From Candidatus Pacearchaeota archaeon (GTDB taxonomy: Archaea; Nanobdellota; Nanobdellia; Pacearchaeales; UBA284), in assembly GCA_026395795.1 (NCBI GenBank), contig JAPLYB010000036.1, forward strand, positions 1 to 50,600: 50,600 bases of DNA, written 5' to 3'. Shown here piece after piece: positions 13,796 through 49,725 of this stretch (positions are counted from its first letter, which is position 1; each line of letters begins with the position of its first letter). The notes beneath the pieces were generated by a model. It was given only the letters and a program-made list of their open reading frames with translations. It had not been told where the DNA came from and made no database searches. A program made the position numbers and the translations under genes.

Positions 13796-13883
13796 TTTAT
13801 TTTATAATTTGCTTATTTTTTGTATTTATTTAATCTATTTAATCATCGCAAAAAATAGCTGATTTTTTGGGATGCCAAAAATT

Positions 13884-14384
13884 TTAATTTTTGAGCAGAA
13901 CTACATTAGTCATCCCCCTTCTTCTTCTCTCAATGAGCTGTCTTCCTTCTAATCTATCCAATATTCTTGTAACCTTCACCTTATCAAATCCAGTTTTATC
14001 AACAACGTCTGACTGAAAGATTATTCCTTGAGCATCAATAATTGATTGATAGATCTTCTTTTCATCCGCATCAAGCAATTTCAAGTTATTTTCTTTATCT
14101 TTTAGCTTCTGCTCATTAATTTCAGATTTTTCTTTGATTCTTTTCACAACAATTTGTTTCTCTTCTTTGCTGAATATTAATGTTATCCCGATAACAACAA
14201 TTATGGCAATCAAAGCGAGAGAGATATAAGTCTGTATTTGTATTGTACCATACATCGGACAAGTGGTTCCGTGACTGCATGAAGTATTCACAATTGTTGT
14301 TAATGCATTGTTAAACAAAAAAACAATTGCCCCTATCAAAAGGGCTATCCCAATTATCAATAGTCCAACATGTTTATTTTTCAT
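13884..14384 (-). CDS. Membrane-anchored winged-helix regulator
   Basis: Two N-terminal TM helices, C-terminal wHTH (IIDAQGIIFQSDVVDKTGFDKVKVTRILDRLEGRQLIERRRRGMTNVVLLKN). Confidence 0.75.
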   Translation of the reverse strand: MKNKHVGLLIIGIALLIGAIVFLFNNALTTIVNTSCSHGTTCPMYGTIQIQTYISLALIAIIVVIGITLIFSKEEKQIVVKRIKEKSEINEQKLKDKENNLKLLDADEKKIYQSIIDAQGIIFQSDVVDKTGFDKVKVTRILDRLEGRQLIERRRRGMTNVVLLKN

Positions 14385-15608: not shown

Positions 15609-15642
15609 TTTTCTACAATATTATTTAACTCCGCAAAAAACA

Positions 15643-15897
15643 TCAGCTTTTTGGGGCGCCAACAGAAATAGCCCTGTTGAGCGCTTTTATCAACTCTTTA
15701 ACATCAACCCCATGCACTTGCGCACCTTCTCTTATTGTTTCTTGTTGAGCAGCAGGACATCCCATCGCACAGAACATTTCATATTTCATGAAGACCCTAT
15801 TTGTTTCAGGAAATTTGGTGATAACATCATGAAAAGTCATCTTCTCAGTTATTTTTTGGTCTTTTTCAGATTTATCCATTTTTTTCTTTGGTTTCAT
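15643..15897 (-). CDS. DUF1858 (hybrid-cluster-associated) domain protein
   Basis: MTFHDVITKFPETNRVFMKYEMFCAMGCPAAQQETIREGAQVHGVDVKELIKALN. Confidence 0.8.
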   Translation of the reverse strand: MKPKKKMDKSEKDQKITEKMTFHDVITKFPETNRVFMKYEMFCAMGCPAAQQETIREGAQVHGVDVKELIKALNRAISVGAPKS

Positions 15898-23380: not shown

Positions 23381-24081
23381 CCACTGGTCACCGCTCGCCC
23401 TTGAAAATTGATTTGGGCTCGCTATAGACCAGTGGCATGATTAAATAATTGCTTAGAAGTTAATTGCTGGAGATTTCTGACAGCCAATATAATCGCTTAC
23501 ATGTTCTTCATCACTTCCAATGTTGTCGAGGAGATAAGCAGGATTCCAAAAACCACTTCCATAAAAATATTTTTTCTTGATTTCTGTAAATGCTCGCAAT
23601 ATTTTTCTGCCAGTTATTCCTCTCAAAATTTTAGCCGCTTCTGGTTTGCTTCTCAAACCAATGTCCACATTAAAATGTAAATGGTTTGAATCAAAACCAA
23701 CCTTTTTTATTGGCAGATGATAGTTCTCAGAAATTTCTTTGAACAAAACAGTAAGGAAGAACCTTACTTTTGCATCATCGAATATTTGATGACAATATTT
23801 AATTTTAAACATTGCGTGGCACCATGAATTTCCCACGCACGAACTTTTTCTATTTAATTGTCGAAACATTTTTTTCTCCAGAGCTCTCGCTAAGCGAAAG
23901 CAAATATTTATTTAGTTGAGAAAGCTCTAGCTAATACAATCGTTCTGTGAGCTAGAGTCAAGCTCACATTTCTTAATGCTTCTAGAAATAAATATCTTCT
24001 TAAAAAAAGAGGATTGATTTATCAAAATGAAATAAGTCCCTTGCTGGGCACTAAGAAGCACCACCAGTCCGAGACTGGTGG
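23381..24081 (-). mobile_element. IS200/IS605-type (or REP-associated) single-strand transposon, approximate limits at the end hairpins
   Basis: Y1 transposase between CCACTGGTC...GACCAGTGG (23381-23435) and CCACCAGTCCGAGACTGGTGG (24061-24081). Confidence 0.65.
23453..23869 (-). CDS. tnpA: IS200-like Y1 (HUH) transposase
   Basis: DSNHLHFNVDIG, LRGITGRKILRAF, FWNPAYLLDNIGSDEEHVSDYIGCQK. Confidence 0.85.
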   Translation of the reverse strand: MFRQLNRKSSCVGNSWCHAMFKIKYCHQIFDDAKVRFFLTVLFKEISENYHLPIKKVGFDSNHLHFNVDIGLRSKPEAAKILRGITGRKILRAFTEIKKKYFYGSGFWNPAYLLDNIGSDEEHVSDYIGCQKSPAINF

Positions 24082-24172: not shown

Positions 24173-24326
24173 TTACCAGTCTTCATCACCTAAATCATCA
24201 CTTGTTTCGTCTTCGTCATCCATATCGTCATCTGAATCCTCATCTTTATCAGATTTATCTTCCTCAACCTTATCGCTCTTATCTTTCTCTCCTAATTCCT
24301 TTTCCTCTTGTTTTTTTGTTTTCATG
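24173..24326 (-). pseudogene. Acidic C-terminal ORF, apparently +1 out of frame with the ATG that follows an SD hairpin
   Basis: ATG frame gives MKTKKQEEKGIRRER*; other frame gives ...LGEKDKSDKVEEDKSDKDEDSDDDMDDEDETSDDLGDEDW*; frames meet at GGAAAAAGG. Confidence 0.35.
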
Positions 24327-24379
24327 CTAAAAAATCCTCCTAATTTTTGGCACGCTGAAAATAATTTATTTTCAAGCGT
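24324..24379 (-). repeat. Double-hairpin palindrome family, copy A (SD in hairpin 2)
   Basis: CGCTTGAAAATAAATTATTTTCAGCGTGCCAAAAATTAGGAGGATTTTTTAGCATG. Confidence 0.7.
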
Positions 24380-24609: not shown

Positions 24610-24661
24610 AGCAAAAACCTCCGGTTTTTGTTGTGCCAAAAATTATTAATTTTTGGGCATG
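24610..24661 (-). repeat. Double-hairpin palindrome family, copy B (SD in hairpin 2)
   Basis: CATGCCCAAAAATTAATAATTTTTGGCACAACAAAAACCGGAGGTTTTTGC. Confidence 0.7.
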
Positions 24662-42914: not shown

Positions 42915-43595
42915 ATGGATTTATCAAAGAGAAATAGAAAAGTTGCGATTTCTAGATGGAAAAAAGTGATAGACAAAGAAAAGAGAGAAATTTCTTCTGA
43001 TAAAAAAACAACTATCTTAAAGGCATCTATTTGCGGTTTCCTAGCTGGTGATGGAAGCGTTCAAGCCAGGGATATGGGGAATTATATCAAATATCAAATT
43101 GATTTCTTTCCAGATGATGAAATCATGCTTGAAAGATATATGAATGATATTAAAGAAGTATATGACAAAACTCCAAGTATAAAAAAGAGGGGAAAAATGT
43201 TTATTGTGAGAATTAGTTCAAAAACAATTGGAGAGGATATTCTGCAAGAAACTAAATTTGGGTTAAAAACATGGAAAGTTCCAAACAAGTTATTTATTTA
43301 TGCTGAAGCCAAAAAATCTTGGTTGAAAGCTTTTTTTTCAGCAGAAGGGTATGTTAATCAGAAATCAATTAAAATTCAAACAGTAAATAAAGAGGGGATG
43401 CTTCAAGTATCTAGGTTACTAGCACATTTTTCTATAAACCATAAGTTTTACAGTTATCTTCCCAAAAATAAGCTCCATTCTAAGGTGTATATTATAATAA
43501 TCTTTAGAAAAGAAGAAAGAAAACGATTTTATGATAAAATTGGGTTTTGGCATTCTAAGAAAATGGAAATACTTAAAAGGTCTATTTCAAATTAG
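42915..43595 (+). CDS. LAGLIDADG homing endonuclease-like protein
   Basis: ICGFLAGDGSVQARD and LKAFFSAEGYVNQ, two LAGLIDADG-type motifs; own TATA (AAAGATTTAAATACTTC) right after the tRNA half. Confidence 0.85.
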   Translation: MDLSKRNRKVAISRWKKVIDKEKREISSDKKTTILKASICGFLAGDGSVQARDMGNYIKYQIDFFPDDEIMLERYMNDIKEVYDKTPSIKKRGKMFIVRISSKTIGEDILQETKFGLKTWKVPNKLFIYAEAKKSWLKAFFSAEGYVNQKSIKIQTVNKEGMLQVSRLLAHFSINHKFYSYLPKNKLHSKVYIIIIFRKEERKRFYDKIGFWHSKKMEILKRSISN

Positions 43596-49485: not shown

Positions 49486-49589
49486 GGGCCCATAGTCCAG
49501 TGGTTAAGTTCTAAAGAATACTTTAGATTCCCATAAATGACGACTCCCTTACACGGAGTAGATCGCTGGTTCGATCCCAGCTGGGCCCA
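49486..49589 (+). tRNA. tRNA-Val (TAC) with apparent ~30-nt non-canonical intron in the D arm (about 49509-49538)
   Basis: GGGCCCA-TA-GTCC-AGTGGTTAAG[TTCTAAAGAATACTTTAGATTCCCATAAAT]GAC-G-ACTCC-CTTACAC-GGAGT...GCTGG-TTCGATC-CCAGC-TGGGCCC A. Confidence 0.85.
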
Positions 49590-49725
49590 TTTATTCTCAT
49601 AAAATTAAATTTTATCAAAAATTAAATTTCGCTGGGATCGAACCCTGGTTCTGCTCAGAAATGAGAACATTTCTGGCACGCCAAAAATTTCATAATTTTT
49701 GAGCGGATCCCAGCTGGGCCCATTT
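49573..49725 (+). repeat. 20-bp direct repeat of the tRNA-Val 3' end enclosing a multibranch palindromic insert
   Basis: GATCCCAGCTGGGCCCATTT at 49573-49592 and 49706-49725. Confidence 0.8.

Follow-up and report, generated by a model that had tools for sequence, protein, structure and literature searches.

The tRNA-Val gene near the end of the DNA analysed here is followed by a 133-bp unit that ends in a second copy of the tRNA 3' end, which raises the question of what this unit is and how it came to lie behind an intact tRNA gene. The window, meaning the whole stretch of 50,600 nucleotides, is contig C23 of a 957-kb genome in 44 contigs that is 87.5% complete. The gene beside the locus has its nearest named relatives in MAGs of Candidatus Pacearchaeota and Nanoarchaeota, at 45-52% protein identity, which places the organism with these DPANN archaea. 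As described in the first-pass annotation, GATCCCAGCTGGGCCCATTT occurs exactly at 49573-49592 and again at 49706-49725, a spacing of 133 bp, and its first copy forms the tRNA-Val 3' end. Assuming even base composition, a 20-bp repeat of this kind would arise by chance within 300 bp with a probability of about 3e-10. The locus consists of the following parts.

49486-49589, + strand: intact tRNA-Val(TAC), its D arm enlarged by an intron-like insert of ~31 nt (Rfam RF00005, 53.9 bits; missed by ARAGORN).
49573-49592, + strand: first copy of the exact 20-bp repeat, comprising the T-arm 3' half, the acceptor 3' strand and the first trailer bases.
49593-49630, + strand: 38-nt AT-rich spacer, putatively a diverged copy of the tRNA trailer as judged from other composites (from sequence).
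49631-49644, - strand: inverted T-arm copy GCTGGGATCGAACC (from sequence, as an inverted repeat).
49647-49651, + strand: GGTTC, the 5' half of a second T-arm copy (from sequence).
49652-49705, no strand assigned: 54-bp double-hairpin element, T-[GCTC...GAGC]-G, between GGTTC and GATCCC (covariance model, boundary analysis and fold).
49652-49678, + strand: half-hairpin 1, with a TGC foot, bulged T, 8-bp stem, loop AGAA and GCA foot (DNA fold).
49679-49705, + strand: half-hairpin 2, inverted relative to half 1, with a CGC foot, stem, loop TCAT, bulged A and GCG foot (DNA fold).
49706-49725, + strand: second copy of the exact repeat, followed by the original trailer, in agreement with the trailer of the tRNA-Val paralog on C5.

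The tRNA itself was probably overlooked by ARAGORN because of the D-arm insert. This hairpin-forming, intron-like insert of ~31 nt is found in both tRNA-Val genes of the genome (window 49486-49589 and G000 C5:661-765), both of them missed by ARAGORN, and is absent from the syntenic tRNA-Val of relatives. Elsewhere in the window, the gene of a LAGLIDADG-domain protein (42915-43595, + strand) immediately precedes a long tRNA gene that apparently contains an intron (C23:43603-43718), and in G011 a sub-threshold group I intron match lies within an archaeal 23S rRNA gene (L055, 37-274).

Between the two 20-bp copies, the spacer is followed in order by the inverted T-arm GCTGGGATCGAACC, CT, GGTTC and the 54-bp double hairpin. 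With the double hairpin left out, the middle reads GCTGGGATCGAACC-CT-GGTTCGATCCCAGC, a perfect 14-bp palindrome; GGTTC at 49647-49651 together with 49706-49714 would then pair perfectly with the inverted T-arm copy, which had been noticed on first inspection and is present at 49631-49644. The 153-nt strand folds at -40.5 kcal/mol, compared with -15.8 kcal/mol for shuffles (z -8.7), and the 54-bp element has a fold z of -7.1. The earlier proposal of a branched fold holds for the two AT hairpins and the GAACC/GGTTC hairpin, all of which are contained in the predicted structure. The proposed GCTC/GAGC closing stem, in contrast, is not favoured: the family folds as two adjacent hairpins with their own YGC/GCR feet, often above a bulged T.

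Comparison with related loci revealed a defined empty site. In the paralogous tRNA-Val (GAC, C5:661-765) the 3' end is followed almost immediately by the same downstream sequence, TTTTAAAAAGTTTTATATACTAATTTTT, without the insert, and in three syntenic Pacearchaeota relatives the tRNA-Val adjoins the same downstream gene with neither insert nor element. The tRNA-to-gene distance is 181 bp here and 41, 50 and 54 bp in the three relatives; subtracting 133 from 181 leaves 48 bp, within the relatives' 41-54 range. Because the site is empty in the paralog and in three relatives and the distances agree, the 133-bp unit would most simply be a lineage-specific gain, rather than a region that evolved as ordinary spacer.

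Similar composites were found behind other tRNA genes, as the first-pass annotation had anticipated. Among 30 tRNA loci checked in this genome, seven have a downstream partial tRNA copy with an inverted T-arm, and all seven contain the element, compared with neither element nor inverted-T-arm duplication at the other 23 (0/23, p 5e-7). An eighth composite lies at the start of contig C27, and ten more occur in four relatives (G004, G008, G010 and G011), most of these ten having been found via an element match near a tRNA, giving 18 in five genomes. Each partial duplication is built from its own tRNA, always carries the element and leaves one tRNA intact. Well-preserved trailer copies are evident tandem duplications, most clearly in G004 C33 (TATTTTCTTTATTTTTGGA vs TATTTTCTTTATTATTGGA), which repeats AATCCGGGCGCTGGGA-TATTTTCTTTATT; G008 C90 repeats 38 bp. 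Two positions, GTTC^(R)A and AATC^C, account for most insertions within the composites. Upstream of tRNA-Pro there is a mirror-image 5' composite, in which the 5' end is split by the element at GTAT/AACTTGG and followed by an inverted D-loop.

The presence of an intact tRNA, a 20-bp direct repeat, an insert and a defined empty site is the geometry of integration at a tRNA site, and in tRNA-targeted integrative elements the insert is likewise flanked by a direct repeat of the tRNA 3' end. The locus had accordingly been likened to an integrase att site, in which a 133-bp mini-element, its attP core identical to the 3' end of the tRNA, was integrated into tRNA-Val to form attL and attR. The composites largely refute this model, to which we now give almost no credence. 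Inserts behind different tRNAs have no common body except the double hairpin, the spacer and inverted part being copied locally from each tRNA's own trailer and T-arm; the same 54-bp element also lies outside tRNAs without repeats; and the tRNA-Pro composite is on the 5' side. The inverted T-arm is a further difference from tRNA-integrase elements, and a unit of 133 bp is too short to encode an integrase.

To survey the double hairpin more widely, a covariance model was built from six copies and used to search this genome and 55 order-level genomes. In this genome the model identified at least 80 non-redundant copies, and the flank, ORF and fold counts given here rest on 80 of them. Matches were obtained in 23 of the 55 genomes, 12 of which have at least ten; for the large family f8, most genomes had no match. 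The consensus is Y-GCTN, a stem of 6-8 with a loop of 3-7, GGCATGCC, a second stem and loop, and NAGC-R. Since the unit differs little from its reverse complement, the model matches both strands, including at the tRNA-Val copy (49653-49704, 77.2 bits). Two independent hairpins, each with a YGC/GCR foot, are the best DNA fold in 79 of the 80 copies. Exactly one base is bulged at the foot in 56 of 160 halves, and it is a T in 55 of those; most of the other halves displayed have a small internal loop at the same position. Four further copies lie in the window.

13848-13896, - strand: family copy, 41.8 bits.
15631-15682, - strand: weak or decayed family copy, 35.3 bits.
24326-24377, - strand: family copy directly 5' of a start codon, with AGGAGG in the hairpin loop (covariance model).
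24611-24658, - strand: family copy, 34.4 bits.

Only 15 of the 80 copies fall within an ORF, compared with 76% expected (p 2e-27), indicating gene avoidance. Two earlier suggestions did not survive the survey: most of the 80-odd copies lie in ordinary intergenic DNA, contrary to tRNA-specific targeting, and nothing marks the tRNA-Val copy as the origin or hub of the family, its top score being due in part to its use in seeding the model. Separately, a 132-bp perfectly identical repeat with a double hairpin inside occurs at two loci, L068 and L091 (C17 and C39), and is possibly a larger, recently moved unit.

The copies have sharp ends. When they are aligned on the element edge, pairwise identity of the flanks stays at background (~0.30) up to position -3, and similarity between copies at different loci mostly begins and ends at the same edges. 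Position -1 is a pyrimidine in 149 of 160 ends and position -2 an A in 100 of 160 (p 3e-11); A and T on the two sides in 31 of 80 copies (p 6e-9) give A^T as the usual insertion site. Filled and empty sites can be paired: GGCATCAC in L068/L091 is the counterpart of GGCA|T-el-G|TCAC in L079:3996, where el denotes the element, the target AAAAA^TCTTC is occupied by nested copies as AAAAA|C-el-A|TCTTC in L085 and L062, and the target AAGTTA^TACTAC in a tRNA-Pro fragment was entered without duplication. No target duplication of more than 1 bp was found in filled/empty pairs, nested copies included, a 1-bp duplication being indistinguishable from the terminal base (Y or R) of the element. Seven copies are inserted exactly at the central GCR|YGC junction of another copy. 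The flanks of non-tRNA copies show little general preference for hairpins, and flank complementarity is only slightly above that of shuffles, driven by the nested and tRNA copies.

These boundaries bear on whether a defined unit was transposed at all. Under pure replication slippage, hairpins and inverted T-arms would arise de novo by template switching and perfection of palindromes. The inverted T-arm and trailer duplication do resemble template switching, and the stems vary between copies yet stay perfect. However, ends, foot, linker and A-rich arms common to the copies, with sharp boundaries, are unexpected of de novo palindromes, as are nested copies at one precise junction, and we regard slippage by itself as highly improbable. 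What the comparison reveals is a dispersed family whose copies have sharp ends and conserved hairpins, are inserted precisely, in most cases at A^T, and nest in one another, together with an empty site for the tRNA-Val locus. The miniature mobile element proposed on first inspection is thus supported by comparative evidence, all of it from incomplete MAGs.

Stem variation was then considered for whether the hairpins are maintained as DNA or as RNA. Over 147 rows, pairing stands at 98.6-99.3% in the two hairpins, values inflated by training of the model on well-paired copies. All 14 stem pairs have changed on both sides, with 415 double-changed cells compared with 22 G-U cells (1.1%); these counts take both strands of one copy, and cells represent sequences, not independent events. 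Selection on RNA would tolerate G-U pairs, and their near-absence therefore suggests a constraint on DNA rather than RNA. This may mean that transposition machinery reads the DNA hairpins, or that the arms are corrected by hairpin copying.

Several copies nevertheless occupy transcribed places. Elements lie within archaeal RNase P RNA in five genomes, namely this one, G001 (two), G005, G007 and G014; the RNase P RNA gene of this genome (G000 C22:14558-15042, L223) is 485 nt long, enlarged by two double-hairpin elements. In G008 a tRNA whose anticodon is TCT has an element within its intron. Taking ORFs of at least 50 codons, 13 element ends adjoin a start codon, and a Shine-Dalgarno sequence (GGAGG, AGGAG or similar) is present in the adjacent hairpin at nine of these 13, compared with 6 of 179 other ends (p 4e-9). 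The end of a double hairpin coincides exactly with an ATG, and its loop contains GGAGG, at L062:8519, L074:1570, L058:3047, L058:6284 and window 24326, and likewise at G007 L039 and G010 L042. Such hairpins are possible ribosome-binding hairpins, and because examples occur also in G007 and G010, the recruitment would be recurrent or old. By association, RNase P RNA, 5' UTRs and the intron of a tRNA tolerate copies, and some copies have apparently been exapted as ribosome-binding hairpins.

Good folding, transcribed locations and the Shine-Dalgarno excess are also what would be expected if the trailer structure, or the double hairpin, were a conserved RNA element under selection, such as a terminator, processing signal or regulator. 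We consider this improbable as an account of the family: stem variation is nearly free of G-U, the unit is matched on both strands, syntenic tRNA-Val genes lack the structure, and function at some sites looks secondary.

A search for a mobilising enzyme yielded no clear candidate in the genomes covered. Y1_Tnp is present in 5 of 12 element-rich and 14 of 43 element-poor genomes, showing no significant co-occurrence (p 0.73) in these incomplete MAGs. The ends of the three IS200-type loci of this genome (L097-L099), compared by eye, are unlike the element, and an IS200-type Y1 transposase was rejected as mobiliser on both grounds. One IS200/IS605-family Y1 transposase is encoded in the window (23453-23869, - strand; NF033573, PF01797), with IS-like ends common to two more in the genome (C3 and C43). 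A Y2/IS91 transposase was likewise set aside, occurring in only 3 of 55 genomes; this genome is among the three, with an IS91-like Y2_Tnp at G000 C8:38293-38784. No autonomous copy, in which half-hairpins flank a gene, was recognised among 47 solo half-hairpins, most of which are members of ordinary pairs missed by the strict rule, and two consensus patterns had no match to viral carriers in IMG/VR. Insertion without target duplication is a hallmark of the IS200/IS605 (HUH Y1) mechanism. The bulged hairpins also resemble what HUH (Y1) enzymes process (PMC6006769, PMC8266576). A serious candidate mechanism, though one we stop short of favouring, is movement in the form of single-stranded hairpins that a trans-acting nuclease of the HUH type would cut.

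Among known systems, the closest likeness is to REPIN/REP dimers (HH) and TnpA_REP (RAYT) systems, in which each unit also consists of two short inverted hairpins, copies are numerous and intergenic, and compensatory stem changes, clusters and nesting occur (features compared from PMC3116915, PMC3733652 and PMC8266576). E. coli REP likewise has a bulged stem. As in REPs, two inverted hairpins form one dispersed, extragenic unit. In contrast, the archaeal foot is YGCTN / NAGCR, with no GTAG or CGTC tag, and no RAYT/Y1 co-occurrence was seen in these incomplete MAGs, the Y1 protein of the window matching the IS200/IS605 model; because tag and RAYT both fail, we class the element as a variant and not as a REP member. 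It further differs from REPINs in its archaeal host, its precise nesting at GCR|YGC and its sites in tRNA-derived sequence, in RNase P RNA and at start codons. CGTC REPs are likewise without a known transposase, and some bacterial REP dimers are reported to lie within palindromes not found without them (PMC3733652), a parallel to the archaeal element in T-arm palindromes.

Double-hairpin and repetitive hairpin-forming elements of mitochondria (Allomyces, sponges) are also compact and dispersed in small AT-rich genomes, and those of Allomyces have no flanking duplications and no known mobiliser (PMC2800124). They differ in sequence, host and compartment and are not known to share an enzyme with the archaeal element; the likeness is structural only (PMC2800124), and for the archaeal element, unlike these, the evidence favours a DNA-level constraint. 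MITEs derived from IS200/IS605 (palindrome-associated elements) have subterminal hairpins (PMC6006769) and share the lack of target-site duplication (1 bp or less being undecidable), but the present element has ends unlike the three IS200-type elements of the genome and an abundance that does not track Y1 genes. A MITE of a DDE DNA transposon fits poorly, as nested filled/empty pairs lack a target-site duplication of at least 2 bp.

Taken together, the comparisons suggest that the element is probably a miniature, non-autonomous, REPIN-like mobile double hairpin that spreads at the DNA level in Pacearchaeota-like archaea and survives at tRNAs only where its insertion is coupled to a local duplication. 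We propose that the element would insert into the T-arm as a hot spot, where insertion alone would destroy the tRNA. Survivors could then arise by replication template switching through the T-arm palindrome, yielding an intact tRNA and a partial copy that carries the element. A wider and rather doubtful reading is that archaea harbour a new class of mobile hairpin DNA, represented by this element and lacking its own transposase. Such DNA would move as single-stranded hairpins (through a trans nuclease, possibly from another organism, or replication template switching), persist in essential RNA genes because it folds compactly or because a local duplication is coupled to its insertion, and be put to use time and again as ribosome-binding hairpins.

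Most known REPIN-like elements come from bacteria that possess a dedicated transposase, and we found no description of such a family in DPANN archaea in the open-access literature. The family described here abounds in genomes no larger than ~1 Mb. Its targets include tRNA-derived sequence and RNase P RNA, and some copies provide the next gene with its Shine-Dalgarno sequence. The scarcity of G-U pairs offers a simple test that distinguishes DNA-level from RNA-level upkeep of hairpins. The tRNA composites document, in natural genomes, how a cell may withstand insertion into an essential gene, and the mobilising enzyme, if found, would open a new system of single-stranded DNA mobility.
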